From the IMG/VR virus record IMGVR_UViG_3300021960_009059, positions 1 to 27,988 of that record: a stretch of DNA of 27,988 nt, one strand, 5' to 3'. Both the position numbers and the translations under genes were made by a program. The DNA is from a virus. The notes below the pieces were generated by a model. It had not been told where the DNA came from and made no database searches. It saw nothing but the letters and a program-made list of their open reading frames with translations. Positions 13,081 to 27,988 of this stretch are shown here, piece after piece (position 1 is the stretch's first letter; each line of letters begins with the position of its first letter).

Positions 13081-13893
13081 TTAAACAAACGGTGTAAATA
13101 TATTCTTTATTATTACATTTTGTTGTAAACAATTTAATAGCCAAGCAGTTTCACTGGTAAATAAATGAATAAATGGTTTTTTAGAAGAATCAAGCCATTG
13201 CGTTTCAACACATTTCAATCTATCTTTCATATCACTACTATCAAAAACCTCTTGTTTATATGTAAATTTTTCTTCTTTTTCTACAATATACTTATCTATA
13301 TTAGGAAATAAGTTTGCCTTTAAAAAATTACTGTATGATGCAAAGTATACAAAATCTTTAAATGTATACAAGTGTTCTCTGTTAAAATTTTCTTGTTTTA
13401 TATACTCATATAAACTTCCGTAATTATTTACTATCATAGAATAGATAGACTTAAAATTATAAAAAGTACATGCATTCATCTGATGGGTTCCGAATTTCAT
13501 AAGGTCTAACCTCCATTTAACAATATAGTCATATTCAGAAAGATCTACTTGGTTAAGAACTTCGTTTAGTCTCCTCCATTGTGCTATTCTACCGAAATTA
13601 GCATTAAAGTGTACTCCTTCAGGAATAGAGTTTTCAGTTTCTTTTATTAGATTTGAATACTTTTTTAAGTAGATATTTTTGGTATCTTGCCAGTAAGATG
13701 ATTCAGTAGTTATTACTTTAACAGGGTTAAATTGTTCAGCAATTTGTTTATAGTTATCATCTGTATGAAAGTATAAGTCACAGTCTTTAACTAATTTAAA
13801 ATTAATTTCTTTCCAATAGCTATAGTCGATATCTTTATTTAATGAATTTTTTATCTGTTCTACTGGGCCTAAGATTATTACTGCTACTTTCAT
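13081..13893 (-). CDS. Glycosyltransferase-like protein inside tail cassette (paralogue 1)
   Basis: A 270-residue protein beginning MKVAVIILGPVEQIKNSLN, a short first strand-loop like the other two paralogues in this window (17251-17901 and 21213-22016). Shared features are DLYFHTDD (39-46), comparable to DIYCYTWN and DIFIATWN in the others, and an Arg/Lys-rich segment followed by YDYIVKWRLDLM (121-132). The YDxx(I/V)K..(D/N)L block lies where such proteins have their nucleotide-sugar/metal site (RxD). These resemble small glycosyltransferase-like proteins of polysaccharide clusters and phages; activity is inferred, not shown. There is no signal peptide or membrane anchor. It starts as ATGA on the stop of the preceding gene. 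Its presence between tail genes suggests virion glycosylation or an island insertion. Confidence 0.6.
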   Translation of the reverse strand: MKVAVIILGPVEQIKNSLNKDIDYSYWKEINFKLVKDCDLYFHTDDNYKQIAEQFNPVKVITTESSYWQDTKNIYLKKYSNLIKETENSIPEGVHFNANFGRIAQWRRLNEVLNQVDLSEYDYIVKWRLDLMKFGTHQMNACTFYNFKSIYSMIVNNYGSLYEYIKQENFNREHLYTFKDFVYFASYSNFLKANLFPNIDKYIVEKEEKFTYKQEVFDSSDMKDRLKCVETQWLDSSKKPFIHLFTSETAWLLNCLQQNVIIKNIFTPFV

Positions 13894-14546
13894 TCTATAT
13901 TATCAGTTAAAACTTTTATAAATCTTACTGTATTTTTAGTTAATTTTTCTTGCTTACCTGACGGATTAATTACAGTATTTTCTGTAAGTAGTGTACGAAC
14001 TACTTTTATAAAAAATTTATGGAATATAGGAGTATTTTTAAGAGATGAGTTTATTCTATAAAATAAATTTCTATAAATATCATCTCCAATTACTCCGTGC
14101 ATGCCGCTCCATAGAACAGTAGTATTACCGTATTTCTTGTCTAATTTAGATTCTAAATGTAATTTTTCTGTATCTTCATATTCTGGATGCATTCCACCTC
14201 TCCAGTATAAATGAGTAGTAGCAACTTGTGTCTGACGTATAAAGCTTGAAAGTAGTAAAGCTGCTAGTCTTTCTTCAGAATTATTAGAACAGTCTACATA
14301 ACTTTCACATAGTGCGGTAATCCATCTAGCATTAAACTCTTTTGCTATTTCTTTATAATTTCTTTTTACATAGTTAGAAATATCGTTTTCAAAATTAAAA
14401 GTAGAGGTAAGTTCTCTATCCCATACTTGAGTTGTAGGAGAATTAGGGCCAAAATTTCTAGTGTAAGCTATATAAGGGTATAGATAGTAGAGGTGTTTAT
14501 TTGTAGGATCTTTAGGATCTATAGCTTCAAGTTTAGTATTAGACAT
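13890..14546 (-). CDS. Unknown protein coupled to glycosyltransferase-like gene
   Basis: A protein of 218 residues when started at the ATG at 14546 (MSNTKLEAIDPKDPTNK). An upstream in-frame TTG at 14567 falls on the T-tract of the tube terminator and is unlikely. I do not recognise a family. Notable blocks are EIAKEFNARWITALCESYVD, TTHLYWRGGMHPEYEDTEKL and TVLWSGMHGVIGDDIYRNL. The Trp, His and Cys in these look conserved and could be structural or catalytic. There is no signal peptide. A TATTTATA motif lies 10 bases before the start, right after the terminator, so it may head a new transcription unit. The stop overlaps the start of the paralogue 1 gene (ATGA), suggesting the two proteins act together, for example as partner or acceptor of a glycosyltransferase. 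It could equally be a tail component such as a tail terminator. Confidence 0.55.
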   Translation of the reverse strand: MSNTKLEAIDPKDPTNKHLYYLYPYIAYTRNFGPNSPTTQVWDRELTSTFNFENDISNYVKRNYKEIAKEFNARWITALCESYVDCSNNSEERLAALLLSSFIRQTQVATTHLYWRGGMHPEYEDTEKLHLESKLDKKYGNTTVLWSGMHGVIGDDIYRNLFYRINSSLKNTPIFHKFFIKVVRTLLTENTVINPSGKQEKLTKNTVRFIKVLTDNIE

Positions 14547-14556
14547 AACTTTTTTA

Positions 14557-14564
14557 TATAAATA
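14557..14564 (-). promoter_or_regulatory. TATTTATA motif after the tube terminator
   Basis: The coding strand reads GTATTTATATAAAAAAGTT before the ATG at 14546. It directly follows the terminator T-tract, so transcription of the downstream genes would need a new start if the terminator is efficient. This copy has TATATA rather than TATAAT. Confidence 0.35.
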
Positions 14565-14565
14565 C

Positions 14566-14589
14566 AAAAAAACCCGGGAATACCGGGTT
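14566..14589 (-). terminator. Rho-independent terminator after the tail tube gene
   Basis: The coding strand reads AACCCGG TATTC CCGGGTT followed by TTTTT: a perfect 7-bp GC-rich stem, five-base loop and T-tract, 22 bases after the tube stop codon. It is the only strong terminator seen in the window, and it closes the abundant sheath/tube transcript. Confidence 0.9.
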
Positions 14590-14611
14590 CTTTAAAAATG
14601 AGGTGGCTATT

Positions 14612-15136: not shown

Positions 15137-16858
15137 TTATGCGTCAAATGTTGCGCCTGTTGGTTCTACTACGAAATCAAGAACAATAAATTCAGCTGTT
15201 TTAGATGGTTGTATAAATATTTGACCAACTAATTGGTTTCTATCTACTACATCTGCTGTATTATTCGTATCATCCATTACAACTCTATAGCTAAATAATC
15301 CTTGTTGTTGTACTACTGAGTCTAAGTAAGGATTAACTGCAGCTAAGAATCTGTTTCTAGTTGCGATAGTATTTTGTTCGAATACTAGATTTTTAGCTTG
15401 ATCACCTAAGAATTTTTTAAGTTCGATTAACAAACGTCTAACATTTACTCTATCTAAAGCTGATGCTTTAGTTTGTAAAGTCTTCTGTCCGAATACTGAT
15501 ATACCTGTTCCTGGGAAAGAAGCTATTGGATTTACTTTACCACTGTATAGTGAATCTCTATTTGCTCTAGTTAATTTTTTTCTTGTCTGTATTACTCCAA
15601 CTAATCCTCCTCTTACTAATCCAGCAGGTGCGAACCAAGGTGCTGAACTATTATCTGTAAATGCATATACTCCTGGTATTACAGTAGAAGCCGGTACCCA
15701 TACGTTTCTTCCTGTAGCTGACTGAACTTGTAACCAAGGCCAGTATGAAGCTGCGTAAGAGCTATTGTGTCCTGTAGCTTGTGAAGTTACGTTAGCAATT
15801 GTAAGTTCTGAGTATCCTACTAAATCAATAGCTGCTATACAATCTCCTCTAGTCTCTGCTAAAGAAACTAAACTATCTACAGTTGTTCCATGTGAAGCAT
15901 CTATTAACCCAGGTGCTGAAATAATATTGAATAAAAATTCATCTTTATTTCCTAATAAAGAAATAATATTTGTATAATCTCCTGCTACTAAACCTTGAGT
16001 ATTAGCTGCTATATTTCCAAATGATGTTTGAGTACTCTGTACTACATTTCCTGTGGCACCGTGGAATCCTCCTGAAGCTGCAGCTGGTAAAGAGCCACTT
16101 GCTGATGCTACTCTTATATTTCCGTCATTTCCTAAGTAGTCGAATGTTTTAGATGTAACTGAAGCTACATAAACATAATTCGATTTATTTACATAGTCAC
16201 CTGATTGAATAAGGTCACCGCTGCTTAGAGTTTGAAATTGATCTCCTATTTTTGCTGCAATATAATTTGGAGCATTTGGATCTAATGATAAATCGTTAAA
16301 AGTTTCTAATACAACTTTTCCATTTGTATTGTCATCTCCTCTTCTAATAGTTAAAGAAAAAGTTCCTTTTGCATTATCCTTATTACTTATTTCCCATCTT
16401 ATGTTATCTGCAGAACCTGAAACTAAAGAGCCATCAGAATTCTGTGTACCTGCGTCTAAGGATCCAGTTGTGTTGTTATATATTGAGCCTTTACCTATTG
16501 TTTTTAGTTGAAAAGGTTCAGTCGATCCTGAGGAAGGAAGTATTTTAGAATTAGAAGCATTAGCCCAGCCTGATGCTGTTGCTACTACTCTAGATACTAA
16601 TAAGCTTTCACCTCCTTGATCAAAATAGCTTTTTGCAGCTATTGAAGTAAGAAACTCGCCGCTTGTCGATGCACTTTCAAAAGTAACACCAAATTTTCTG
16701 CTATATTCGTTGTATGAAGTTACTAACGTTGGAACTTCTACAGGTCCTTTTACTGTAGGTCCGATAATTGCTGCCCCGACTGCTGTAGGTGCGGGTTGAA
16801 TAAAAGAGATGTCGTTTTCTCTTGAAAATACACCAGGGGAGATAATTGTTTCTGCCAT
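15137..16858 (-). CDS. Contractile tail sheath protein
   Basis: A 573-residue tail sheath subunit. It begins MAETIISPGVFSRENDISF and continues GAAIIGPTVKGPVEVPTLV and TSYNEYSRKFG, the classic N-terminal signature of sheath proteins. The variable middle (about 140-340) is Ser/Thr/Asn-rich and probably surface exposed. The C-terminal domain is conserved: GVIQTRKKLTRANRDSLY, then IASFPGTGISVFGQKTLQ, then DRVNVRRLLIELKKFL, and lastly FIQPSKTAEFIVLDFVVEPT. Six-fold rings of it surround the tail tube and contract on infection. There is no Shine-Dalgarno sequence before the ATG at 16858, but two TATTTATA motifs and a 105-base leader region precede it. It heads the tail cassette and is the first late gene after the modification island. 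Confidence 0.95.
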   Translation of the reverse strand: MAETIISPGVFSRENDISFIQPAPTAVGAAIIGPTVKGPVEVPTLVTSYNEYSRKFGVTFESASTSGEFLTSIAAKSYFDQGGESLLVSRVVATASGWANASNSKILPSSGSTEPFQLKTIGKGSIYNNTTGSLDAGTQNSDGSLVSGSADNIRWEISNKDNAKGTFSLTIRRGDDNTNGKVVLETFNDLSLDPNAPNYIAAKIGDQFQTLSSGDLIQSGDYVNKSNYVYVASVTSKTFDYLGNDGNIRVASASGSLPAAASGGFHGATGNVVQSTQTSFGNIAANTQGLVAGDYTNIISLLGNKDEFLFNIISAPGLIDASHGTTVDSLVSLAETRGDCIAAIDLVGYSELTIANVTSQATGHNSSYAASYWPWLQVQSATGRNVWVPASTVIPGVYAFTDNSSAPWFAPAGLVRGGLVGVIQTRKKLTRANRDSLYSGKVNPIASFPGTGISVFGQKTLQTKASALDRVNVRRLLIELKKFLGDQAKNLVFEQNTIATRNRFLAAVNPYLDSVVQQQGLFSYRVVMDDTNNTADVVDRNQLVGQIFIQPSKTAEFIVLDFVVEPTGATFDA

Positions 16859-16963: not shown

Positions 16964-17263
16964 TTAACCTTTAAAAGGAATAAAAACTTGATTGTCGATA
17001 TCTACTGTGCCTTCCCCGTACTTATTAGTTAAAGTTTTAGATAATTGACGTTCAGATTCAAGATTACTTTCAAATACAGTATTATTTTTTCTTTTTCTGA
17101 TATCTAAGCTGGCTTCTAGCTGTCCGATAGATGCAAATTCGTTTACGACTATTTGTTTAGAGGTATTTAAATCAGTAATTAATTTAATCTCTGTTGGAGT
17201 CAAAGGAATAGTCTCAATTTGAGGTTTCTTTGCTTTAGATTTTAATTCTTTTATTGTTGCCAT
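16964..17263 (-). CDS. Small coiled-coil hypothetical protein
   Basis: A 99-residue protein starting MATIKELKSKAKKPQIETIP. A mainly helical, charged middle (about 22-80) would form a coiled coil (ASIGQLEASLDIRKRKNN, ERQLSKTLTNKYGEG). The end, KYGEGTVDIDNQVFIPF, has a TVDID pattern typical of short phage proteins of this shape. I recognise the general style (small coiled-coil proteins found in many AT-rich phages) but no function. It overlaps the upstream glycosyltransferase-like gene by 13 bases and so belongs to the end of the island operon, yet it directly precedes the sheath gap. It may be a chaperone or minor tail factor; this is a guess from position. Confidence 0.65.
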   Translation of the reverse strand: MATIKELKSKAKKPQIETIPLTPTEIKLITDLNTSKQIVVNEFASIGQLEASLDIRKRKNNTVFESNLESERQLSKTLTNKYGEGTVDIDNQVFIPFKG

Positions 17264-17901
17264 GGTTTACTATCTGGTATTAACAGGTCTGTATCCTGTA
17301 TTAGTTTTATATTACAATTATTTATCCATTCTTTCCAAAATATACTCCCTTCACAATTATTACCGTATTCTCTTCTTACGTCTAGATCAGTTGAGTACAT
17401 TCTATGTACAAAGCTTTCTTCTAAGATATGAAATATTTTACTAAAAGCCAACGGGTAGCCTGAAAATAATCTTTCATCCATAGTTTTATAGTGAATAGAG
17501 CCATATACACACTCTTCTTTTTTGGTGCCTTCTAAAAGAGGTCTAGACTGTAGGTAAGCTTTATTAAAATAATGTTCTAAGTTACCTTGATACTTTATAC
17601 CCCCAATCAAATTAGGTTTAAATTTAATTATTTTATCGTAAATAAAAATATTATCTATCATATTTACGGCTTTGTATGTAGAATAAAAATAAGAATGTCT
17701 TTTAGAATCAAATAATGGCTCTTTTACTTCTACAAATAAATTTCTACAGTATTTTTTATAGCGATTTAATTTTTTTACCCACCTGGGGTTATCATCAATA
17801 TTCCAAGTATAACAGTATATATCAGTATTACTATCTAAGAACGGTATAATATTATCTGACAGATGTGTTACTAAACCTGATATAATAATTGCTTTATTCA
17901 T
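17251..17901 (-). CDS. Glycosyltransferase-like protein (paralogue 2)
   Basis: A 216-residue member of the same family as the proteins at 13081-13893 and 21213-22016. Shared landmarks are an opening strand (MNKAIIISGLVTHLSDNI), TDIYCYTWNIDD (26-37) and YDKIIKFKPNLIGG (88-101), the equivalent of YDYxxxKxxxDL. In this copy the acidic residue of the RxD block is asparagine (N97) and the arginine is lost, so it may be inactive or use another site. The C-terminal half has many aromatic and charged residues (YGSIHYKTMDERLFSGYPLA, SIFWKEWINNCN). There is no membrane anchor. It overlaps the genes on both sides, so it is co-translated with the phosphodiesterase-like gene. A role in glycan assembly is inferred from the island; catalysis is not demonstrated. 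Confidence 0.55.
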   Translation of the reverse strand: MNKAIIISGLVTHLSDNIIPFLDSNTDIYCYTWNIDDNPRWVKKLNRYKKYCRNLFVEVKEPLFDSKRHSYFYSTYKAVNMIDNIFIYDKIIKFKPNLIGGIKYQGNLEHYFNKAYLQSRPLLEGTKKEECVYGSIHYKTMDERLFSGYPLAFSKIFHILEESFVHRMYSTDLDVRREYGNNCEGSIFWKEWINNCNIKLIQDTDLLIPDSKPWQQ

Positions 17902-18334
17902 ACTCTCCTACGTAGTCACTACATACTCCTCTAGTTAAGTCAACTGGTGTGTTATTAGTGCTTTCCGGCATTACTAGTATACCGTTATCTAATGAATTTA
18001 TACTCCAAATAAAACCCTTAGAAGTTAATGTAGCATAATCATTTTCATGCCAAAAATAATTTAACTTATAACCTCCTTTATCTATTTCAACTAACTTAAC
18101 TAAAGCTTCTTTATTTTTACAATGTATCCACATTTTATTATACCAGTTTTTTAACAGTTCATAAGGAAACTGGTACTGAGGTTCGTCATGTCCTAAAACG
18201 AATTTACTGTCTATATAGTGAATATCTACTTCTACATCAAAACCTGCCCGTAATGCTTCATATACGTAAGCCGGGTTATTTTCTCTGTCAGGATTAGGTC
18301 CTGTAATATTACCTCTATGAGAAATTAAAATCAT
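17894..18334 (-). CDS. Short glycerophosphodiesterase / PI-PLC-like protein
   Basis: A 146-residue protein with the catalytic marks of the GDPD / PLC-like phosphodiesterase fold. HRGN at 6-9 supplies the H-R pair, E18 lies in DRENNP, E35 and D37 in GFDVEVDIHY, and a second histidine in LGHDEP (48-52). The sequence is about 90 residues shorter than full GDPD enzymes. It has only the first part of the barrel plus a compact second half (KMWIHCKNKEALVKLVEI, FIWSINSLDNGILVMPE). Compact proteins of this sort occur in polysaccharide gene clusters, where they may cleave or transfer glycerol- or other phospho-groups. All key residues are present, so activity is plausible. It overlaps the aminotransferase gene by 20 bases upstream and the paralogue 2 gene by 8 bases downstream. 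Confidence 0.72.
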   Translation of the reverse strand: MILISHRGNITGPNPDRENNPAYVYEALRAGFDVEVDIHYIDSKFVLGHDEPQYQFPYELLKNWYNKMWIHCKNKEALVKLVEIDKGGYKLNYFWHENDYATLTSKGFIWSINSLDNGILVMPESTNNTPVDLTRGVCSDYVGEYE

Positions 18335-19337
18335 GATTCTTTATAATAGGTTCATAATTTAATTTTATCCACATACCTTCTTCACCGGGTAGTAAATTAG
18401 TCCTATGGTGTATTCTTTGTAGTTCTAAAAGTTCAGATAAATCTTTACCATTCTGGTTTTGTTTTATAAAAACCCAACTACATTCTGTATCTCTTATCTC
18501 TACTCCTTGTTCAATTAACTTTTCAACAAATTTTTTCTTTCCTTCACTTATATCTTTAAAGTAGTTAAGAAAAAAAGTATGGTGTTTAATTATAAAATCT
18601 ATATACCTTGCTCCTAGTGAATTAATAGGGTACATAAGTCTTAGCTTACTATAATAGCTACTAATATTATTTTTACTTGATATTAAAACTCCTACTCTAA
18701 GTCCTGCTGCTCCATATGCTTTAGAAAATGTTCTAAGTACAGTAAGGTTTTCATATTCATTAATTAATTCTATACTAGATTTTAAATTAGTTAATTCTAT
18801 ATAAGCTTCATCTACTATTAAATGTACTCCTGTATCTAAAATTTTTCTAATATTATCTACACTTTGAGTATCTCCTATAGGTGAATTAGGATTAGCAAGT
18901 ATGACAAACTGTGTATCTTTGTCTATTAATTCAATAATAGAATCTACATTTAAGTTTAAGTTTGTATAAACAGCTTTTTTAACCTGTGTTTCACTTATAT
19001 CAGCATAAACATTATACATAGGAAAACAGTAATCTGAGGTTACTATGTTTTTACAGCATACATCGAATGTATCGAAAATAGTTTTTATACCAAAATCACT
19101 ACCGTGAGTAAGCATAATATTTTCTGATTCTACTCCGTACATATTAGCTACTTTAACTTTTAAAGGGGCTATATCGGGGTAATGAAAAATATCTTCTTGC
19201 TCTATAGATGATAAAAAATTATCAAATACTTCATCAGGTAGATAAGTATTTCTTTCATTTTGACCTAAGTAAATACGGTATTTTTTTCTATCTGTATTTT
19301 TTTGATACCTTTCAACTTTCTTTAAAAAACCTTTCAT
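18315..19337 (-). CDS. HisC-type PLP-dependent aminotransferase
   Basis: A 340-residue class I/II aminotransferase of the histidinol-phosphate / threonine-phosphate decarboxylase group. It keeps the PLP-site residues: ANPNSPIG (148-155), VDEAYIEL (175-182) and RTFSKAYGAAGLRVG (202-216), with K206 as the Schiff-base lysine and R214 as a phosphate or PLP contact. The substrate-side segment GQNERNTYLP (25-34) and the ending MWIKLNYEP also fit. HisC homologues in surface-polysaccharide clusters are often thought to transaminate or decarboxylate phosphorylated amino alcohols. The phage has no other histidine-pathway gene in view, so a biosynthetic role in histidine is unlikely. The next gene upstream is the SGNH protein (gap 9 bases) and the downstream one is the phosphodiesterase. 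It is co-transcribed with nucleotidyltransferases that could use its product. Confidence 0.85.
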   Translation of the reverse strand: MKGFLKKVERYQKNTDRKKYRIYLGQNERNTYLPDEVFDNFLSSIEQEDIFHYPDIAPLKVKVANMYGVESENIMLTHGSDFGIKTIFDTFDVCCKNIVTSDYCFPMYNVYADISETQVKKAVYTNLNLNVDSIIELIDKDTQFVILANPNSPIGDTQSVDNIRKILDTGVHLIVDEAYIELTNLKSSIELINEYENLTVLRTFSKAYGAAGLRVGVLISSKNNISSYYSKLRLMYPINSLGARYIDFIIKHHTFFLNYFKDISEGKKKFVEKLIEQGVEIRDTECSWVFIKQNQNGKDLSELLELQRIHHRTNLLPGEEGMWIKLNYEPIIKNHDFNFS

Positions 19338-19346
19338 ATTTTAAAA

Positions 19347-20297
19347 TTATAATACTTCTTTTGTTCGTAGTGCACGTTTTACATCTCTTTTTATATTCAG
19401 AGTAGATGCTAAGTGTTTAGCAAAGTAACTATTACCTAATTCAGAAAAATGATAGTCTCCTTCTAGCCCGTAATCTCTATGTAAAGTAGGTACATCTTTA
19501 GCTAATAATTTTGGTGTTCCTATAGATTGCTTTATAATTGTTGACATTCCTTCAGTACCTATAATATTTAACTCTTCATATAAGTCTGCCATAGTTAGTG
19601 GCCCTTGTATTGCCTTTTCCCAACCTACCCTATGGTACTGACTGTATATCTCTTCATAAATTTTAATTTCCTGGAGTGTTAATTTAGGTAGGGTGAACCA
19701 CGGTTTAGCGAATATTCGAAACTCTGCTCCGTTTTTTTCAAATACTTTCTGTAAAAAAAGTAACTGGTAAAAGTACTCAATCATAAAAAAATTTTCATCG
19801 TACAAATGGAAAAGATAGTCTTTTTGCATTCTATTAAGACCGCTTTCTTCTGGGTAGTTGTTAGTACAAAAATGGTGTTGTGTTTCAAAGGCCATACGGC
19901 CATTATCGTATCTTATCAGTAGTTCGTCCCTATAGTTATATTGTAGCTGTACTATAACTAAATGATTAGTTAAGTCAGGTGTATTATAGAAGTAGTTCTG
20001 CAATGATCTTATTGTAGTAGTAGTACCAAGTCCTCCGTAACCTAAGTTAACTATATTTCCAATATTAATATAGTCTCTTAAATATGCCATCCAGGTTAGA
20101 TTGTTAGTTATAAATTCTGCTGTACAATCTGTGTTAAATTTATTTTTAATTTTATCATTAGCCCACTCAAATACCCAATTAGGATCATTCCAGGTATCTC
20201 TAGGCCGATTTTGGTACTTAGTGAAAGCACACCCTTGAGTATGAGAACAGCCTGCTGCTACTAAAGTGTAACACTTATTAAAATCTATTTTATTCAT
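19347..20297 (-). CDS. SGNH-hydrolase-like protein
   Basis: A 316-residue protein with SGNH-fold landmarks. GCSHTQG (16-22) replaces the usual GDSxxxG and includes candidate nucleophile S18. NLGYGGLGTT (84-93) supplies the glycine block and QYNYRDE (119-125) the asparagine block. DYHFSELGNSY near the C-terminus supplies the D/H pair, although the D-to-H spacing is one residue shorter than the common DxxH. GCSHT is common in phage and viral members of this fold, where the role may be removal or transfer of acetyl or other acyl groups on glycans. There is no signal peptide, so it would work in the cytoplasm or on virions. It overlaps the radical SAM gene by 8 bases. A second protein of this type, truncated by the window, stands at the other end of the island (27419-27988). 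Confidence 0.75.
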   Translation of the reverse strand: MNKIDFNKCYTLVAAGCSHTQGCAFTKYQNRPRDTWNDPNWVFEWANDKIKNKFNTDCTAEFITNNLTWMAYLRDYINIGNIVNLGYGGLGTTTTIRSLQNYFYNTPDLTNHLVIVQLQYNYRDELLIRYDNGRMAFETQHHFCTNNYPEESGLNRMQKDYLFHLYDENFFMIEYFYQLLFLQKVFEKNGAEFRIFAKPWFTLPKLTLQEIKIYEEIYSQYHRVGWEKAIQGPLTMADLYEELNIIGTEGMSTIIKQSIGTPKLLAKDVPTLHRDYGLEGDYHFSELGNSYFAKHLASTLNIKRDVKRALRTKEVL

Positions 20298-21216
20298 GTT
20301 TAATTAACTTTAGCATTGGTGCGAGTTCTTTATATGAACAAGTAGCACAGTGACTTGTAGGTTTATTAGTGGCACATCCTTGTTGTACTGCTTGGAAATC
20401 TTTAGAGTTTCTTATTTCTTCTACAGTATTTTCAAATAAGTTACCAAACGGCTTAGCACCTGTGTTAAGACAACACATTTTTACATGCCCTTCTACTGTA
20501 GTATAAATTCCTTCTTTTACCCAGAAACAATCAGGAAAATCCCATTCATCTTTTCCTTTTAAATTATCTTTCCAGTTTTCTTTTAAATACTTTATTTCTT
20601 TTTGAGTATATCCTCCAGGCATATTTTTATCTTCACTCCATTCTTGTGCAATATTTAATCTAAGCTCTTCCAAACCATAAACATCTACTATTTCATCTTG
20701 AATAGTTTGAATATCGTAAACATTATCTGGGTTTACAACATAATTACAAGTAACTCTGCATCCATGTCTTTCCATAGGCTTAAAGTGTTCTAAAAAAGAC
20801 ATAAGTTTATCCCATTTAGCAGGTGCTCTATCTCTTTCGTATGAATCTTTATATCCATCAATACTAAAATAAAGAAGGTCTATATATTTCATACTTTCAT
20901 TAAACTTTCTACCCATTTTAGTATCAGGTCTGATAGGATATTGACAGTTGGTAGCTACTATTAAAAAAGCATCTGGGAAATATTCTTTAAAAGTTTTACA
21001 TATTTCATCAAACTGAGGGTGCAGCATAGGTTCTCCCATACCCATAAGTTTAGCCTCTTCAATTGGATGATGTTTAATATTTTCAAGCATTTGTCGAAAC
21101 TTAGGTAAAGGCATATGCTGTAAAGCACCTATAACTTCTTTTCTATTGCAAAAAGAACAGTCTAGATTACAGTAATTAGTAGTCTCTAAATAAGCGTACG
21201 TTATTGGTTTATTCAT
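20290..21216 (-). CDS. Radical SAM protein with SPASM-type C-terminus
   Basis: A 308-residue radical S-adenosylmethionine enzyme. The [4Fe-4S] cluster motif CxxxCxxC is C16, C20 and C23 (TTNYCNLDCSFC). The GGEP-like motif is MGMGEPMLHP (58-67), followed by IDLLYFSIDGY (112-122) at the SAM-binding strand. The C-terminal part has C230 (FPDCFWV), the pair C248-C249 (VKMCCLNTG) and C281, C290 and C293 (GCATN, HCATC), the pattern of a SPASM or twitch auxiliary cluster domain. SPASM enzymes act on peptides, proteins or sugars by radical epimerisation, dehydrogenation or bond formation. No precursor peptide is visible nearby. The setting among nucleotidyltransferases and glycosyltransferase-like genes favours a sugar or activated-metabolite substrate. 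The neighbours overlap on both sides (8 and 4 bases). Confidence 0.9.
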   Translation of the reverse strand: MNKPITYAYLETTNYCNLDCSFCNRKEVIGALQHMPLPKFRQMLENIKHHPIEEAKLMGMGEPMLHPQFDEICKTFKEYFPDAFLIVATNCQYPIRPDTKMGRKFNESMKYIDLLYFSIDGYKDSYERDRAPAKWDKLMSFLEHFKPMERHGCRVTCNYVVNPDNVYDIQTIQDEIVDVYGLEELRLNIAQEWSEDKNMPGGYTQKEIKYLKENWKDNLKGKDEWDFPDCFWVKEGIYTTVEGHVKMCCLNTGAKPFGNLFENTVEEIRNSKDFQAVQQGCATNKPTSHCATCSYKELAPMLKLIKHE

Positions 21217-22016
21217 ACTATTTTTCCTTTAAATCCAGGCAGGGTAGCTTTATTTTCTTTTTTTAATTGATTTTTATGCATAGCTAACTGATGTGTTAAG
21301 TTTTCTGATGAAGCATATTGTTCAAAAACTTTATGATCTAAAACCGGTCTCATCAGAAATAATTCTATATAAGTATTCTTTATATTAAAATTAAAAAACT
21401 TAAAGAAGTAAATATGATTCCAGTGACCTCCTTCTCTATATGTTATATTTAATTTTTTATAATGCTTATGAATCCAGAAAAAGTTATACATTAATGAATG
21501 TAAATCTGCTGCTAGTGAATTTTCTATAAACATATAATCTTGATTCAACCTATATGCAGGGAAAGATCCTCTGCTATTTTTTTCTTCTGATAGTATAAAC
21601 TCATCTAAAGTATATACACAAGGTAAAGTTTCGTTTTTAAAATTTATTTCTGATAAGCTTTCATAAAATCTTTTTTTTGCTATTACTAAATCTACTCTTT
21701 TTACTATAACATAGTCGTAAGTAAACTGTTCTTCAACTTCTACTTTTCTTTTTAATTGTATAGAGTTTGATATAGAAAATGCCATTTTAGGAGTATTTCC
21801 TGTCACTCCTTCTTTTTCTATTATAGATTGATCTAAAAATAACTTATCTTTGAAGTTTAAATTAAGTAAGCTAGTATCAAAATCATTCCAAGTTGCTATA
21901 AATATATCAACTAAGTAACTATCATTATCACAAAGATACTCATAGTACTCTTTTAACTTATCTACGAACCGGACTTGGCCGAAAAGACATATCGCTATTC
22001 TTTTTTTACTTTCCAT
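21213..22016 (-). CDS. Glycosyltransferase-like protein (paralogue 3)
   Basis: A 267-residue protein opening MESKKRIAICLFGQVRFVDK, a first-strand and loop pattern (xxxFGQxR) seen in small glycosyltransferase-like proteins of polysaccharide loci. DIFIATWNDFD (37-47) and YDYVIVKRVDLVIAK (100-114, with R107 and D109 forming the RxD block) align with paralogues 1 and 2. The C-terminal part (residues 150-230) contains RLNQDYMFIENSLAADLHS and HKHYKKLNITYREGGHWNH, with several conserved-looking histidines. There is no signal peptide. It overlaps the radical SAM gene (4 bases) and the nucleotidyltransferase gene (11 bases), so the three are translated together. The nucleotidyltransferase could supply its donor. 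This is the best preserved of the three copies, though enzymatic function is inferred. Confidence 0.6.
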   Translation of the reverse strand: MESKKRIAICLFGQVRFVDKLKEYYEYLCDNDSYLVDIFIATWNDFDTSLLNLNFKDKLFLDQSIIEKEGVTGNTPKMAFSISNSIQLKRKVEVEEQFTYDYVIVKRVDLVIAKKRFYESLSEINFKNETLPCVYTLDEFILSEEKNSRGSFPAYRLNQDYMFIENSLAADLHSLMYNFFWIHKHYKKLNITYREGGHWNHIYFFKFFNFNIKNTYIELFLMRPVLDHKVFEQYASSENLTHQLAMHKNQLKKENKATLPGFKGKIV

Positions 22017-22734
22017 TTAAATATTTCTCTAAGTATTCTGGTGTTCCTAGTTCGTATACCTTATCTACTTGAGTTATAATATACTGCTTACCGTCTTTTA
22101 TACCGTAGTTATAGACAGGAGCAACATAAAATTCATTATTAACTCTATCATTAGCTGCAATCATTTCTTCAGCATACTTTACGTAATCAGAACCTTTACT
22201 CCAAAAATAATATCCAGCAGTAGCATCGTTAGATATAACTTGTTTTTCTGCTACTTCTGTTACAAACCCTTCTTTATTGGATTTAGCGTATGACCAATCT
22301 GTACTATCTCCCCAAAAGCATGGTATACCTCCATCATATTTTTTTATTTTTTCAAAAGTATCTTCAACATTATAATCAATCATCTGATCAGTATTAAATG
22401 AAAGCATTGGAGTATCATTGTTAACATACTCCTTAGCTAAAAGTAAAGTACAAGCAGCTCCTTCTGTAGTACCGTCAATTTTAACTATCTCAATATTATT
22501 ATGCCCTATTATTTCGTTAAAAATACTAAAATTATACTTTTCGTAATCAGATTTTTGACATAGTATGATAGTTTTAAATTCTGAGTTGAATTCAAAGTTA
22601 AGATTTTCTATTACTCTTTGAATCATAGGTTTTCCGTTTACGTCTATAAACGGTTTTGAATCTGTATATCCTTGTTCTGTAAATCTCGAACCTTTCCCTG
22701 CCATGGGTATAACTATGTTAAAAAATTGCTTCAT
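22006..22734 (-). CDS. Sugar-phosphate nucleotidyltransferase
   Basis: A 242-residue protein with the complete nucleotidyltransferase core. MAGKGSRFTEQGYTDSKPF (11-29) includes the GxGxR phosphate loop and the lysine that contacts the sugar phosphate. DGTTEGAACTLLLA (87-100) is the base-binding loop, and SFNTDQMI (112-119) holds the metal-binding aspartate D116. The closing segments VAEKQVISNDATAGYYFW and EFYVAPVYNYGIKDG are typical of GlmU/RfbA/LicC-like enzymes of the single-domain kind. It would couple NTP to a phosphorylated sugar or amino alcohol, giving the activated donor needed by the glycosyltransferase-like proteins. It has no acyltransferase tail. It overlaps both neighbours (11 and 17 bases). 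Which nucleotide and substrate it uses cannot be told from the sequence. Confidence 0.87.
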   Translation of the reverse strand: MKQFFNIVIPMAGKGSRFTEQGYTDSKPFIDVNGKPMIQRVIENLNFEFNSEFKTIILCQKSDYEKYNFSIFNEIIGHNNIEIVKIDGTTEGAACTLLLAKEYVNNDTPMLSFNTDQMIDYNVEDTFEKIKKYDGGIPCFWGDSTDWSYAKSNKEGFVTEVAEKQVISNDATAGYYFWSKGSDYVKYAEEMIAANDRVNNEFYVAPVYNYGIKDGKQYIITQVDKVYELGTPEYLEKYLNGK

Positions 22735-23440
22735 TTCTTTTTCTATATTCTATTGTTTTTTTATTTATATCTAATACTATATCTAAATATTTTCCTTCGA
22801 ACCAATATGGTTTTGCTCCTCTGTAAATAAATTTACTAATAAATTCAGTTTCAGTTTCTTCGGTAACTGGGAATAAAGTAGGAACATTATGACCTGCTTT
22901 AGCACAAAAGAACTGTTTATGAGTGTGTTGTTCTCCATGCGCTTTACTAGAAGCCAGTACCGGAAATACAGTACCGAATTTTTTAAAAGAAGAATAACAT
23001 TCATACGAAACTGTTATATATTCGTTATATACGTCCCATGGAGTATCAGAGTCAATATGCTCTTTTGCTTTTTTCAGAGTTTCATAATCCGGCAAATTAG
23101 TAGTTATATTATCTTGTATATGCCAATCTGTTTGATAATTTGCTACTAAATTTTTATCTATACATGCAAATATAAAGTATTCAGGTTTATCAAAAAAATT
23201 AGGATTATGGTAGTAAGCTTGTTTATAAATTAAATCTAAAAAACTTCCATCATGATCTGTCCAATGCTTAAGTCTCTTTAATCCTCCTCGATATTGTTCC
23301 GGGTAGTCTTTAATATTTATATTTCTGACAAATTCAACTTGCTTCTCTACTCTCTTTACTATTTCATCTATAGGAAGAAGTGTAAGAGGTTGTATACCGT
23401 CGAAACCGTCACCAAAAAAAGTTGTATTTTGATTAACCAT
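22718..23440 (-). CDS. ParB/sulfiredoxin-like protein, divergent (240 residues)
   Basis: A 240-residue protein. Residues 153-187 (KKFGTVFPVLASSK, then HGEQHTHKQFFCAKAGHNVP) follow the pattern of the ParB/sulfiredoxin fold: a hydrophobic strand, G-x-x-H(T/R), a helix, then VP before the next strand. Here the usual G-x-H-R is HTHK (172-175), with K175 in place of arginine. Two longer proteins in the same operon (23736-24824 and 26551-27411) have the intact form. The N-terminal half contains VEFVRNINIKDYPEQY and GGLKRLKHWTDHDGSFLDLI, with no recognised motif. ParB-type proteins bind CTP in chromosome partition, and related proteins (SerK, SbnI) are small-molecule kinases. The operon makes a metabolic role more likely than DNA partition. 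The link to the fold is a motif-level inference. Confidence 0.5.
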   Translation of the reverse strand: MVNQNTTFFGDGFDGIQPLTLLPIDEIVKRVEKQVEFVRNINIKDYPEQYRGGLKRLKHWTDHDGSFLDLIYKQAYYHNPNFFDKPEYFIFACIDKNLVANYQTDWHIQDNITTNLPDYETLKKAKEHIDSDTPWDVYNEYITVSYECYSSFKKFGTVFPVLASSKAHGEQHTHKQFFCAKAGHNVPTLFPVTEETETEFISKFIYRGAKPYWFEGKYLDIVLDINKKTIEYRKRNEAIF

Positions 23441-23739
23441 TATTTAAAAAACTCGTCAGGATGTACTGATCTATCATCTATAAATATATCTCCGTCAAAG
23501 GGTTTGAAATAAAGTTCATGATATTTTACTCCCCAAGCATCTAACTGTGCTCTAGTGATCGGTCCATAGTATTCTTCTCCTCTTCCGCTTTTATTTCCTC
23601 TAGCAGTATAGAATATAATTATATGCCCATCGTCATACAGTTGATTAATTTTCTTTATTCTATCAGTCCAGGGTTGACGGCTTATAACTGGTCCTTCTTC
23701 TTTGCAAATTGTATTGTCTATGTCTATAATATATTTCAT
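23440..23739 (-). CDS. Small HAD-type phosphatase
   Basis: A 99-residue protein with all four HAD motifs. They are DIDNT at 6-10 (nucleophile D6 and acid/base D8), YTAR at 44-47 (T45), K79 in YFKPF, and IDDRS at 87-91 (D88, D89). The core is minimal, without a cap domain, like the capsule-biosynthesis phosphatases that remove phosphate from sugar phosphates. It would act in the cytoplasm on a pathway intermediate. The second HAD domain of the operon is fused to the cytidylyltransferase encoded at 24811-25869. It starts in a 4-base overlap with the upstream gene and overlaps the downstream one by one base. The active-site set is complete, so it is probably active; the substrate is unknown. Confidence 0.85.
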   Translation of the reverse strand: MKYIIDIDNTICKEEGPVISRQPWTDRIKKINQLYDDGHIIIFYTARGNKSGRGEEYYGPITRAQLDAWGVKYHELYFKPFDGDIFIDDRSVHPDEFFK

Positions 23740-24824
23740 AATTCAAATTTAAAATCATAACCTCTGTACTTATTAGCTTTTTTCATATAGTTTGCAAAAC
23801 TTAATGCCTTATCTGGGTTTTCATTAAAATGATAAAAGGTATTAGGAGGTTCTGAGCCGTTTCCTAGCTCTGGGAGATACTTAATATAGTCTTTAAGGTT
23901 TTCAGATGTCATTAAAGTTCCATATATAAAGTTTCTATTTCTAGCTATATCTAAAACTAAATGTCTATGTCTAAACCATGCTGGAGTTATATAATGGATA
24001 GGTTCTTTTGAGCTAAAATGATCGACCTCTTGTAAATTAAGTAAAAGCGGAAGGTCTTTCTTTGCTATGGGCGCTACTGATAAACGGTGGGAACCGTCTA
24101 GTAAGGTGTTATTCTTATCACTTACAATTACCGGATAACCGTAACCGTACTTAGTAACAGAATATAGCATATCAGGAAACATATCCGCTCTCCACCTGTA
24201 CCTTGGTAGTTTTTGATTAGTGCTAGCTCCTAATAAATTAGGTTTAGGCTTATCTCTACCGTAAGGATTTATTTTTTCACGATTTTTTATATCATTTTTT
24301 TGAAAAGCACTTATTATGTTTTTATAACTATTACAATTTACCTTACTAAAGACTTTATAAAATGTTTCTAGATGTGGGTTTCCTACATTAGTTGATAAAT
24401 GGTTCTTTAAAAATAAATGAGGAAGTTTAATGTAAATATAGTGGCTAGGATATTTTAACTCTCTTATAAAATCTTCTCTATGTAAAGGTATTCTATGAAT
24501 CTTACTATCACTATAATCTTTCCCGAATACAAAATTACCTTTATTTCTGTTAAACTCAATAAAGTCTTTAATTAAAATATTCCAAGTTAAAGTTTTCCAT
24601 TTAAGACCAAACCTAAAAGTACTTGGGTCGTTTCTGTGTTGAGAGGTAACAGTTATAGGAGAAGTAACTAATGGATCTTGTAAGCTTTCTGCGCAAACCA
24701 GTCTTTCTTCATAGAAATCGAAAAATTTAATAATTTGGTAAAGCGAGTAGTGCTTAAATAGTTCTAATTCTGGTAGACCTTTGTCTATAAAGTGGTTTTC
24801 TTGTTGTATTTTATAAGTTTCCAT
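23736..24824 (-). CDS. ParB-like domain protein (362 residues)
   Basis: A 362-residue protein with a ParB-like core in its second half. WRAD (211-214) is followed by KYGYGYPVIVSD (225-236), LLDGSHRLSVAPIAKKDLP (241-259) and LLLNLQ, matching the strand, G-x-H-R loop, helix, VP/LP and strand order of ParB/sulfiredoxin folds. The N-terminal 200 residues contain HYIYIKLPHLFLKNH (128-142), which resembles HFIYLEIPSKLLVKY in the 286-residue protein at 26551-27411. The two are therefore likely homologous over more than the ParB motif. There is no helix-turn-helix or dimerisation domain as in true ParB, arguing against chromosome partition. The role is unknown; kinase-like or nucleotide-binding activity is a hypothesis. 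It overlaps the cytidylyltransferase-HAD gene upstream by 14 bases and the small HAD gene downstream by 4 bases. Confidence 0.68.
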   Translation of the reverse strand: METYKIQQENHFIDKGLPELELFKHYSLYQIIKFFDFYEERLVCAESLQDPLVTSPITVTSQHRNDPSTFRFGLKWKTLTWNILIKDFIEFNRNKGNFVFGKDYSDSKIHRIPLHREDFIRELKYPSHYIYIKLPHLFLKNHLSTNVGNPHLETFYKVFSKVNCNSYKNIISAFQKNDIKNREKINPYGRDKPKPNLLGASTNQKLPRYRWRADMFPDMLYSVTKYGYGYPVIVSDKNNTLLDGSHRLSVAPIAKKDLPLLLNLQEVDHFSSKEPIHYITPAWFRHRHLVLDIARNRNFIYGTLMTSENLKDYIKYLPELGNGSEPPNTFYHFNENPDKALSFANYMKKANKYRGYDFKFEL

Positions 24825-25869
24825 ATACGTATTCTATTGTATTTTCCCAATTTTCAAATCTGTATCCTTTATCATCTATATATACTTTAGCGTTTGGCTT
24901 GCCCCAAACAATATCGTTTACATATTGCTTTATACCGTGTTTTTCTAGCCATTCCCAAGTACCTTGTATACCGTCTTTACCGTTAACAGAAGGTCTCTCA
25001 GGATGTCCTTTGAACGTATATAGTATTATTATATACTTTTCAGAAAGCTTCTTTATAGCATCGATTGCTCCATCTACTGGTTCATCATATACAGTGCCAT
25101 CGTAGTAGCCTTTTGAGTTTTTATGTATTACTCCGTCAAAATCAATAGCTAGTGTGTTTTTAAGTATTTTATCTTGCAACTTACCCCACGACTCTACAGT
25201 ATGACGATTTCTATCTTTATAGACTAACTTTACTAGTTTAAAATCTAACTCAGTATCTACATCTATTAATTCTTCTTCAGGCCAATCTACTATATATGTG
25301 TAAGGCTCTTTTATTAAGTTAGGAAATAACTCCCAATTATCCAACATATATTTCTTTTTAAACATTACTAAAGAATGAGTAGCTTCTAGTACACCAGGAC
25401 CGCCTGTTGTTGATAATCTATCGTTTGGTTTAAAGTTTAATGGTAAACTATCGTCGTTCCAATACCAATTTTTCGTCTTTTTGACTGTTATAGCACTTTC
25501 ATGAGGAGATGATTTATACCAATCTATAACTTTCTGTATTTTATCTATATCTAAAAAAGGCTGGCAAGCATTTACATTAATAATATAATCTGATTTTACA
25601 TTTTTTAAATGTCTATACATTATAGAGTGATGAGCATTGCCAGGTGCTACTGAGTCATACTCTCTTTTTAATGTATTTATTTTATTATCTGCTTTATCTA
25701 TCAATTCTTGATCAAAAGCTGCTAAGTAAACTTCTTCTATATTTTTTAACTTACTAACTTTATCGATAGCTATATCAATCATAGTTGTACCTCCAATATC
25801 TCTTAAATGTTTATTAGGGCAACGAGTACTATCCTTTCTGGCATGTATTATAACTGCTATTGTTTTCAT
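24811..25869 (-). CDS. Cytidylyltransferase fused to HAD phosphatase domain
   Basis: A 352-residue two-domain protein. Residues 1-225 resemble KdsB/NeuA-type cytidylyltransferases: IIHARKDSTRCPNKHLRDIG (7-26, the R and K that bind CTP phosphates), YIINVNACQPFLD (95-107), then IDVDTELDFKLV near 202. Residues 238-352 are a HAD phosphatase: DFDGVIH (242-248), YTFKG (284-288), WGKPNAKVYIDDKGYRFE (322-339) with K324 and D332/D333. The order NTP-transferase then phosphatase matches animal CMP-sialic acid synthetases, whose C-terminal domain is a KDO-8-phosphate phosphatase relative. The phage enzyme may therefore dephosphorylate a sugar phosphate and activate the product with CTP in one chain. The HAD here is of a different subtype. 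It overlaps the 362-residue gene by 14 bases and starts 2 bases after the sulfotransferase stop. Confidence 0.82.
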   Translation of the reverse strand: MKTIAVIIHARKDSTRCPNKHLRDIGGTTMIDIAIDKVSKLKNIEEVYLAAFDQELIDKADNKINTLKREYDSVAPGNAHHSIMYRHLKNVKSDYIINVNACQPFLDIDKIQKVIDWYKSSPHESAITVKKTKNWYWNDDSLPLNFKPNDRLSTTGGPGVLEATHSLVMFKKKYMLDNWELFPNLIKEPYTYIVDWPEEELIDVDTELDFKLVKLVYKDRNRHTVESWGKLQDKILKNTLAIDFDGVIHKNSKGYYDGTVYDEPVDGAIDAIKKLSEKYIIILYTFKGHPERPSVNGKDGIQGTWEWLEKHGIKQYVNDIVWGKPNAKVYIDDKGYRFENWENTIEYVYGNL

Positions 25870-25871
25870 AA

Positions 25872-26558
25872 TTATTTAAAACTGTAATTAAACATTTCTA
25901 TATCCTCATTAAGTATATTTTGTAGAGAATTTATATCTTTATCAGTCATAACATCATAGTATTTTACGTCTAGTTTATTAGATCTATTTAAATGCTGAAG
26001 TTTAGTTTGAGGTAATCCTATTTTTTTGCAAATAAAATCGAAATCTTGCTGAAGATTTTCGAACCTACCAATAAAGTCTATATAGGGTAATCTATCTATA
26101 TTCCCGCTAAAATGGCCTTTTAAGAAATTAACTTGAGATGCTAAGTGAATATTTTCTCCCATATAATCAAAAAGATTAAAAAATGGTTTACCGGTTGTTA
26201 ATGGATCTACATCATTAAATCTTAATTTATTTAAGAATTTTTTTGAGTTCTCTATTTTTTCTTGAGGGTAGTAATAATCAACCCATAAGTCTTCTAAATT
26301 ATCTATAGCATAACTTAAAGGATGTTTATTTAAAAACTCTCTAAATTTATACAGAGAATAAAACCTATCCCAAGGATTACGTACAAAAGTAAATACAAAA
26401 TAGTCTTTAAATAAATCTTCATCAAATTTATCATAATGTATCTTAAATCCTTCATATCTAGAATCGACGTCTAATAGATTGTAGAGAGTTTGTCCAATAG
26501 TTACTCCACCAGTTTTAGGTGTATGTAGAAATATAAATTTTTTCTTGTGATTAATCAT
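25872..26558 (-). CDS. Sulfotransferase-family protein
   Basis: A 228-residue sulfotransferase. FIFLHTPKTGGVTIGQTLY (8-26) is the 5'-phosphosulfate-binding loop that grips PAPS. FTFVRNPWDRFYSLYKF (56-72) is the 3'-phosphate-binding motif, with R60 and S68 as contacts. The C-terminal half (about 150-215) contains IGRFENLQQDFDFICKKIG, the pattern of cytosolic/Golgi type-2 family (sulfotransferase family 2) proteins. There is no membrane anchor, so it would sulfate a sugar, a lipid or protein tyrosine in the cytoplasm. PAPS would come from the host, as no PAPS synthase is visible. Sulfation of a glycan made by the neighbouring enzymes would give a strongly acidic surface. It overlaps the ParB-like gene upstream by 8 bases. 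Confidence 0.9.
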   Translation of the reverse strand: MINHKKKFIFLHTPKTGGVTIGQTLYNLLDVDSRYEGFKIHYDKFDEDLFKDYFVFTFVRNPWDRFYSLYKFREFLNKHPLSYAIDNLEDLWVDYYYPQEKIENSKKFLNKLRFNDVDPLTTGKPFFNLFDYMGENIHLASQVNFLKGHFSGNIDRLPYIDFIGRFENLQQDFDFICKKIGLPQTKLQHLNRSNKLDVKYYDVMTDKDINSLQNILNEDIEMFNYSFK

Positions 26559-27411
26559 CTATTATCAGCTTTTCATTACCCGAGAAAAATTCAAGGCTTT
26601 TTTTACTTAGGTCTATTTTAAAATTTACATCAGGTACACAGAACATGTCAGCCATAGTAACTTTCCAAGAATTTTGATCTGTGCCTAGATTTGGTTTACG
26701 TAAAAAGATAGGTACATCAAAACCTAATAATGCATGAATAATAGCTCTATGAGTACCTCTTCCAAAAATACCGTGTGATTGATTATAAAGGATAGGGTAA
26801 ATAAGCCCTTTATCTTTTATACTTATTAACTGAGTAATGTCAAGGTCAGCTCTCCATGCTATCTCTTCTCTATTTTCAAAAAAATCTTTTATTTTATGAG
26901 CCTCTGGATATTTAGAATCGTAATAATCAGCTAATTCTAATATTTCTCTTATATTTAAATTTTTACTAATAGTTTCTAAAGCAAATTGTTTAAAAATATC
27001 TATATTAGGATTAGAATGTACTTTATCTTGATACTTAACGAGTAATTTACTAGGTATTTCTAAGTAAATAAAATGAGTCCATGTTTCATTTAAACCGGAC
27101 ATATCCATTGATATGACATCTGCTTTTGCAAATGCTTCTTTTGAAAAATGATTAGCCTGTTTACCGTTAATAGTATACTGACTTACATCATTTACTGAAA
27201 AATATGCAGGAGGGTGTCCGCTCCAGAACCCGTTTTCTTCTATATTGTGCTTTTCTTTAAATAAAGGTTCTTCATTAGGTCCTCCTCTTTTCTCATACCC
27301 CTCTTTTTCTAGTAGTTTATGATTTTTTAAATATAAATCTATAACTTCTTCTCCTTTAATAATATCAAAGCTCTTTAAGTTGTTAAATGTATCAAAATAA
27401 AACTTTTTCAT
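26551..27411 (-). CDS. ParB-like domain protein (286 residues)
   Basis: A 286-residue protein with a ParB/sulfiredoxin-type signature. WRAD at 186-189, GLIYPILYNQ (202-211), GRGTHRAIIHALLGFDVP (217-234) and then IFLRKP give the strand, G-x-H-R, helix and VP-strand order. WRAD and HFIYLEIPSKLLVKY (113-127) are shared in spacing with the 362-residue protein at 23736-24824, showing common origin. The N-terminal region (NEEPLFKEKHNIEENGFW, then GHPPAYFSVNDVSQ) has no known motif. No helix-turn-helix is present. The ParB fold here probably serves a metabolic rather than a segregation function. The gene begins 7 bases after the SGNH-like gene and overlaps the sulfotransferase gene by 8 bases. Confidence 0.7.
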   Translation of the reverse strand: MKKFYFDTFNNLKSFDIIKGEEVIDLYLKNHKLLEKEGYEKRGGPNEEPLFKEKHNIEENGFWSGHPPAYFSVNDVSQYTINGKQANHFSKEAFAKADVISMDMSGLNETWTHFIYLEIPSKLLVKYQDKVHSNPNIDIFKQFALETISKNLNIREILELADYYDSKYPEAHKIKDFFENREEIAWRADLDITQLISIKDKGLIYPILYNQSHGIFGRGTHRAIIHALLGFDVPIFLRKPNLGTDQNSWKVTMADMFCVPDVNFKIDLSKKSLEFFSGNEKLIIDD

Positions 27412-27418
27412 ATAACTG

Positions 27419-27988
27419 TTACCTAGTTTTTTTATAATGTTTATAAAGAGTTTCTGCGAAAAGTTTATGCCCTTTCGTAGAAGGGTGTTTAGGTCCGTAA
27501 CTATTTGCTAGAACGTACTCTTCTAGTTCAAATAAATCTCTATCTTCATACTGTTCGAGATAACTGTAAATATTATAGAAATTATATCCCCAGTAGTGTT
27601 TGTATATGTCTATAAAATCTCTCTTGTCATATGTAGAGCTGTTGAAAGTAGGTTCAAAAGCATCCATTAGTATATAATCAACTCCAATATATTCAAAAAA
27701 CTGCTGTAATAATGCAATCATATTAAAATTAAAGAAATCTAAATACCTATAATCAAACATTTCAGTAATAAAGAATTTTTTATAGTTGTTTAAAAAATAA
27801 CCTATATCAGTATTTTCCGGGGTTACGGGTAAACCTAGTAGGTCATTAGTACTTACTGTTTTTTTAAATTGATCATAAGTTCTTTCTTCTTTTAAAGGTA
27901 GGTATATATCACTTATATTCCATGATAGACCTTTCCATTGTCTTTGTTTAAGAGTAGGAAAAAAAGGAAAATCATCTCTTGTAGTAGA
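27419..27988 (-). CDS. SGNH-hydrolase-like protein, N-terminus beyond window
   Basis: The reading frame is open from the right edge to the stop at 27419, so the gene starts outside the window and 189 residues are visible. A methionine at 27760 (MFDYRYLDFFNFNM) is internal, because the 76 codons before it are open and coding-like (ending YFLNNYKKFFITE). Near the C-terminus, YGPKHPSTKGHKLFAETLY has the HPxxxGH pattern of the last block of SGNH hydrolases, where H is the catalytic base. LIALLQ-type helix and GVDYILMDAFEPTF precede it. The first blocks (nucleophile Ser, Gly, Asn) must lie upstream, out of view. It is the first gene seen of the island and similar in type to the protein at 19347-20297. 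Confidence 0.6.
   Translation of the reverse strand, partial: STTRDDFPFFPTLKQRQWKGLSWNISDIYLPLKEERTYDQFKKTVSTNDLLGLPVTPENTDIGYFLNNYKKFFITEMFDYRYLDFFNFNMIALLQQFFEYIGVDYILMDAFEPTFNSSTYDKRDFIDIYKHYWGYNFYNIYSYLEQYEDRDLFELEEYVLANSYGPKHPSTKGHKLFAETLYKHYKKTR

Follow-up and report, generated by a model that had tools for sequence, protein, structure and literature searches.

A radical SAM–aminotransferase core in a putative surface-glycan island next to the tail sheath gene of a marine T4-like phage

The IMG/VR virus record IMGVR_UViG_3300021960_009059, analysed here at its full length of 27,988 bases (the window), covers part of the genome of a marine T4-like phage, and its minus strand carries 14 consecutive open reading frames, designated i14 to i01, running from position 27988 down to 17251. 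The intergenic gaps range from -20 to +9 bases, and the outermost gene, i14, is truncated by the contig end, its 5' end lying outside the window. The layout of the open reading frames confirmed the 14-gene minus-strand island which had been proposed in an earlier note on this DNA, and the position given there, just upstream of the sheath gene, was found to be right, with one gene of 99 amino acids intervening (16964-17263, minus strand; it overlaps i01 and is kept ahead of the sheath gene in most relatives). The T4-like structural context is provided by the gp18-like tail sheath gene itself (15137-16858, minus strand; Pfam and PHROG, the PHROG match with an E value of 8e-74), which anchors the insertion slot, and by tube- and baseplate-type neighbours. 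The sheath protein is 67% identical to its counterpart in Flavobacterium phage immuto, and its identity to the sheath proteins of the other isolates listed does not exceed about 40%. Upstream of its sheath gene immuto possesses tail-fibre-type genes and a lysozyme gene, but not the island. As the nearest isolate is island-less, the host of the window phage is uncertain, and the hints diverge: the nearest isolate infects Flavobacterium, while the cellular relatives of the island's core are alphaproteobacteria.

Inspection of the island enzymes revealed their catalytic motifs to be intact. The core gene i05 (20290-21216, minus strand) encodes a highly conserved radical SAM/SPASM enzyme, which matches PF04055 and PF13186 above cut-off and shows a mean column identity of 77% in an alignment of 14 sequences. 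Its CX3CX2C motif corresponds to C16-C20-C23, and additional invariant cysteines and a C-terminal cysteine domain identify it as a member of the SPASM/twitch enzymes. The i05 profile weakly matches SkfB, BtrN and aminodeoxyfutalosine synthase; the predicted model (predicted local distance difference test, pLDDT, 78) returned SPASM/twitch enzymes generally, and the fold search was consequently rejected as a route to the substrate, its matches not being specific. The second core gene, i03 (18315-19337, minus strand), encodes a HisC-like fold-type I pyridoxal phosphate (PLP) aminotransferase (Pfam Aminotran_1_2, E 3e-29). With 180 bits it stays below the cut-off of 276.6 for the HisC equivalog TIGR01141, so that membership of HisC itself is not supported, but its PLP motif is intact and the assignment as aminotransferase stands. 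The third, i07 (22006-22734, minus strand), encodes a nucleotidyltransferase of the NTP-transferase family (Pfam NTP_transferase). In IMG/VR, i05 was identified at 58 loci, whereas among 50,697 isolate phage records one weak match of 71 residues and no full-length match was obtained; within the limits of these scans, i05 is seen mainly in uncultured phages.

Linkage was counted in 48 non-redundant contigs carrying i05, and gene presence in the 37 of them flanked on both sides by 6 kb or more. A homologue of i03 lies downstream of i05 in 48/48 contigs, in 43 of them at most two genes away. Near i05, i07 is present in 36/37 contigs, followed by i09 (26/37), i11 and i13 (22/37 each), i12 (17/37), i04 and i02 (15/37 each), i08 (6/37) and i10 (3/37). 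The core is made up of i07, i05 and i03, usually together with i09 and i11, while the remaining genes turn over. The conserved linkage on which the earlier note had staked its proposal thus holds for the core but not for the set of fourteen, and its view that the 14 genes form a contiguous and conserved route to just one product was not supported, as i08, i10, i12, i04 and i13 come and go. The single pathway is further undercut by i02, which elsewhere is often paired with a second fusion of HAD and nucleotidyltransferase domains, a combination also present in Synechococcus phages, and by i01, which tracks the sheath gene and is found ahead of it in relatives without the core. The core, in turn, is also present in contigs without sheath genes nearby. 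The presence of two different activation enzymes suggests that at least two activated sugars are formed. A distance correlation was rejected as evidence singling out the core, since nearly all genes, the sheath gene included, correlate, i11 and i13 least.

Further transferase-like genes follow upstream in a longer contig that is identical to the window (L082/L141) and in the closely related L083/L170, and two long relatives hold the complete island, which comprises approximately 28-30 kb with 34 and 37 genes (the 99-amino-acid gene counted) and fills the interval between the tail-fibre genes and the sheath gene. Capsid genes lie beyond it and, in one relative (G003), also portal- and terminase-like genes as read from their sequences only. 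The 14 window genes are therefore the sheath-proximal part of a larger island, and the idea of a sugar-activation and transfer island linked to tail genes was supported. Additional genes in the relatives encode a uridine diphosphate (UDP)-sugar dehydrogenase, a NeuB-type synthase, a D-2-hydroxyacid dehydrogenase, an exostosin-like protein and a HAD-nucleotidyltransferase fusion. No strongly hydrophobic segment was found in the island proteins, those of the complete relatives included (maximum 19-residue mean 1.75).

Directly ahead of i07, other contigs and both host genomes described below carry a small-molecule-kinase-like gene (with a RIO-domain match in one). Among 41 loci that include 4 kb or more of upstream sequence, the kinase was present in 11, the HAD gene i09 in 28, both in 0 and neither in 2, an exclusion with a Fisher p of 2.5e-8, uncorrected for shared descent. 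The kinase accompanies divergent and often longer i07 proteins. From this alternation, two alternative ways of providing or trimming a phosphorylated intermediate are suggested, although shared descent by itself might produce the same distribution. In a motif scan of 84,980 species genomes, clear relatives of i05 were obtained from two, each a single-cell genome of an alphaproteobacterium with the gene situated in a polysaccharide-type locus. Profile searches recovered the known carriers only, with one clear match in 297 genomes of the order of the SAR11 genome and one, likewise already known, in 162 genomes of the order of the other carrier; as the motif scan requires exact motif peptides and the profile searches left out Bacteroidota, the number of bacterial carriers is a lower bound. 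In the first carrier locus (L137), kinase, i07, i05 and i03 are followed by SIS and dehydroquinate (DHQ)-synthase-like genes, with NeuB and several genes resembling cytidine monophosphate (CMP)-transferases nearby. The SIS and DHQ-synthase-like genes 3' of the core (L137:11973-13639) are reminiscent of cyclitol formation. In the second (L138; Pelagibacteraceae, SAR11), kinase, i07 and i05 are followed by an aminotransferase of the DegT family. Because a DegT aminotransferase is swapped in beside i05 here, it is the amination that appears conserved rather than one protein family, and this exchange is the best hint that the product of i05 becomes aminated.

The remaining island genes, all on the minus strand, differ in the strength of their assignments. 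Of the enzyme names originally given, those of i03, i05, i07, i11, i12 and i09 were borne out by family matches, whereas those of i02, i04, i14 and i06 rest on motifs or weak matches. The product of i11 (24811-25869) resembles CMP-sugar synthetases in its nucleotidyltransferase domain (Pfam CTP_transf_3), which has no match among the 50,697 phage records, and carries a C-terminal HAD phosphatase domain (PHROG 1238). This fusion is confined to the window, near-identical contigs and L085, while the other aligned relatives possess the first domain of about 220 amino acids alone. The small HAD phosphatase i09 (23440-23739; PHROG 1238) has an intact HAD motif and resembles the capsule EcbF/BcbF type, though its 34 bits lie below the cut-off of 162 for that family. 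The accessory gene i12 (25872-26558) encodes a sulfotransferase (Sulfotransfer_2, PF03567, E 1e-14). For i06 (21213-22016), a putative transferase family occurring in multiple copies in relatives, DUF7796 was weakly matched, in some relatives, as its sole family, and a profile search returned no significant match. Two SGNH-like proteins were named by motif: the accessory i04 (19347-20297) and i14 (27419-27988), whose N-terminus lies outside the window and reads GDSFTSG in a 90%-identical relative (L083). The short protein i02 (17894-18334) carries the glycerophosphodiesterase-type motifs HRG, ExD and GHD and has a cyanophage homologue annotated as phosphodiesterase, but it matches no Pfam family, GDPD included. 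No family was assigned to i01 (17251-17901; no match in any search, linked to the sheath gene even without the core), to the rare accessory genes i08 (22718-23440; a soluble protein) and i10 (23736-24824), or to i13 (26551-27411), a soluble protein of a family repeated in relatives, whose G-[ST]-H-R motif has its H-R invariant. Although the AlphaFold model of i13 is confident (pLDDT 92), fold and profile searches returned no significant match. A core resembling ParB or sulfiredoxin is suspected from the G-x-H-R motif, which is clear in i13 and i10 (there as G-S-H-R) and not in i08; the best PDB match to ParB is weak (E 3.8), and in BFVD five entries named ParB or sulfiredoxin are among the top 20, all with E of at least 0.25.

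Late expression, as assumed earlier, was not supported by the promoter scan: no T4-type late promoter (TATAAATA) was found on the minus strand ahead of the sheath gene, the count of the pattern being at chance level, and a sigma-70 scan was rejected as not above shuffled background. The sole terminator-like hairpin found on the minus strand from 27988 down to the end of the tail-tube gene is located at 14567-14593, 3' of that gene. Neither Rfam families nor tRNA genes were found within the window. The third nucleotidyltransferase previously noticed at the left edge was verified by a match to Pfam CTP_transf_like (gene 3-353); it adjoins a gene with a weak 2OG-Fe(II) oxygenase-like match (350-784). 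Two genes of 270 and 225 amino acids with no assigned function (13081-14567) separate the tail-tube gene from the tail gene that follows; they are missing from most relatives. By eye, the start of the first closely resembles that of i06 family members, a hint of another small site of insertion.

The slot before the sheath gene carries unrelated genes in other phages, and its gene content is variable. In relatives with a 62-66% identical sheath protein it is occupied by 3-7 radical SAM genes, most of them arranged in tandem (L057:797-9638, L073:1160-9635 and L015:2016-6013, also L016, L040, L051 and L053). Those of L057 encode 349-540 amino acids with mutual identities of 21-37%; the proteins tested match the twitch-domain family NF033640, and CX3CX2C is intact in L057, L073 and L015.

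From gene content and order, core linkage, motifs and the host loci, a possible series of reactions may be derived, with its product, target and benefit. Here, i05 would oxidise or otherwise remodel a small substrate of polyol or sugar type, yielding a carbonyl, which the adjacent PLP enzyme i03 would aminate; the weak profile match of i05 to BtrN, which acts as a radical SAM dehydrogenase in aminocyclitol formation, is consistent with these steps. Subsequently, i07 would form a nucleotide-activated product, with the kinase participating in some lineages and the HAD protein i09 in the lineage of the window. In parallel, i11 would form a CMP-linked acid sugar, the relatives also carrying a NeuB-type synthase. 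The transferases and the sulfotransferase may then attach the activated sugars to a glycan, with the host cell envelope as probable acceptor reached via the host's own export machinery, and the infected cell would thereby be changed for competitors. The envelope is favoured because the core is shared with host loci and because a change of the host surface has been proposed for similar phage clusters (PMC2984593, PMC7824862).

The reading that the window holds the sheath-side portion of an island for surface-glycan biosynthesis, carried by a lineage of marine T4-like phages, with its core shared with host polysaccharide loci and the host envelope as acceptor, is accordingly preferred, but tentatively, with confidence a little short of even. 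Several points weigh against it. Neither a flippase, a polymerase nor any other likely membrane protein is encoded in the island, and the envelope is not favoured as target on this count. The match between i05 and BtrN (E 8e-5) is weak and limited to the first 95 residues, and the fold matches of i05 span many functions; no substrate can be named. Distances of i11 correlate poorly with those of i05 (r 0.22), and i11 may act in another pathway. The alternation of kinase and HAD protein may reflect two i07 subfamilies by descent. Finally, immuto as the sole close isolate lacks the island, hence isolates lend no support as to host or function.

The lack of likely membrane segments, which would render export unnecessary, fits a decoration of the virion, where soluble transferases would attach the cytosolic activated sugars to the tail-fibre or other tail proteins encoded next door. 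The location of the island between tail-fibre and sheath genes and the lack of a terminator-like site before the sheath and tube genes are in line with this idea, and the neighbouring fibre proteins mostly contain 22-30% Ser and Thr. This composition was rejected as evidence of virion glycosylation, since the fibres of immuto are similarly rich in both residues without the island being present; moreover, the core also occurs in contigs without nearby sheath genes and in host polysaccharide loci, and in other phages this slot is filled with unrelated genes. Virion decoration is thus considered possible but doubtful, and a largely virus-maintained radical SAM pathway to an activated amino sugar or aminocyclitol, which soluble phage transferases put on the virion's own tail, is judged unlikely. 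The adjacency of radical SAM enzyme and aminotransferase together with the BtrN match resembles aminocyclitol pathways, and a cluster for a halogenated metabolite was proposed for jumbo cyanophages (PMC7824862), so a diffusible aminocyclitol- or aminoglycoside-like small molecule might be made instead of a glycan. Given that the islands hold genes for a sulfotransferase, a CMP-transferase, a NeuB-type synthase, a UDP-sugar dehydrogenase and several putative sugar transferases, while the window lacks a DHQ-synthase-like cyclase, this is rather improbable. The variable content of the slot recalls the suggestion, raised for cyanophage lipopolysaccharide (LPS) clusters (PMC3037559), of non-functional filler DNA retained for headful packaging; yet intact catalytic motifs, the strong conservation of i05 and the fixed core order point to selection and render filler very improbable.

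With a radical SAM enzyme that is always accompanied by an aminotransferase, the statement that phages carry LPS genes is turned into defined and testable chemistry. As i05 and i03 are of moderate size, predicted to be soluble and conserved, their product is open to a direct search, and its identity would show whether these marine phages produce sugars to put on their own virions or instead alter the surface of their hosts.

Marine phages of the T4-like kind have been described as carrying large clusters of polysaccharide genes (PMC3037559, PMC2984593, PMC7824862), and calling the island unusual, as the earlier note did, was therefore overstated. The LPS or capsule clusters of the T4-like cyanophages P-SSM2, S-SM2 and S-SSM7 are comparable in their size, gene type and phage background, and Synechococcus phage records, that of S-SM2 included, contain homologues of i07 and i02. 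As there, several sugar-activation and transfer genes are grouped in the window island, which adjoins the sheath gene, whereas the cyanophage LPS clusters are located near hli03/phoH. The NAD-dependent epimerase/dehydratase and PfkB kinase present in full cyanophage clusters gave no Pfam match among the 14 genes. In cyanomyoviruses, the hypervariable region between gp17 and gp18 (Millard et al. 2009, cited in PMC3037559) likewise holds variable cargo directly upstream of the sheath gene; unlike in that region as described there, capsid and tail-fibre genes separate the terminase-like gene from the island in the complete relatives, and the cargo of the present phages consists of glycan genes, replaced in some relatives by arrays of radical SAM genes. 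BtrN and SpeY, SPASM-twitch dehydrogenases which act together with aminotransferases, share with i05 the radical SAM core, an auxiliary-cluster domain and a gene location beside a PLP aminotransferase gene, with the sequence similarity being weak and the fold search unspecific. For the Campylobacter capsule enzymes Cj1435-Cj1438, the amino-alcohol phosphate used to decorate the capsule is described as being provided and trimmed by a transaminating enzyme and a phosphatase (PMC12096443); an aminotransferase and a phosphatase within a glycan gene set recall i03 and i09, a lead by description only, and unlike for the island, no radical SAM enzyme is named in that portion of the source. Environmental T4-like genomes, of which one encodes 12 radical SAM genes and a further one NeuA together with LPS genes (PMC5332604), show marine T4-like phages to be rich in radical SAM or surface-polysaccharide genes, the linkage of i05 and i03 not being described in the sections of that report concerned. 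A radical SAM–aminotransferase core with alternation of kinase and HAD protein was not found described in the literature searched. Phage glycan islands and variable sheath-side slots are already known, and the radical SAM–aminotransferase core is the new part.

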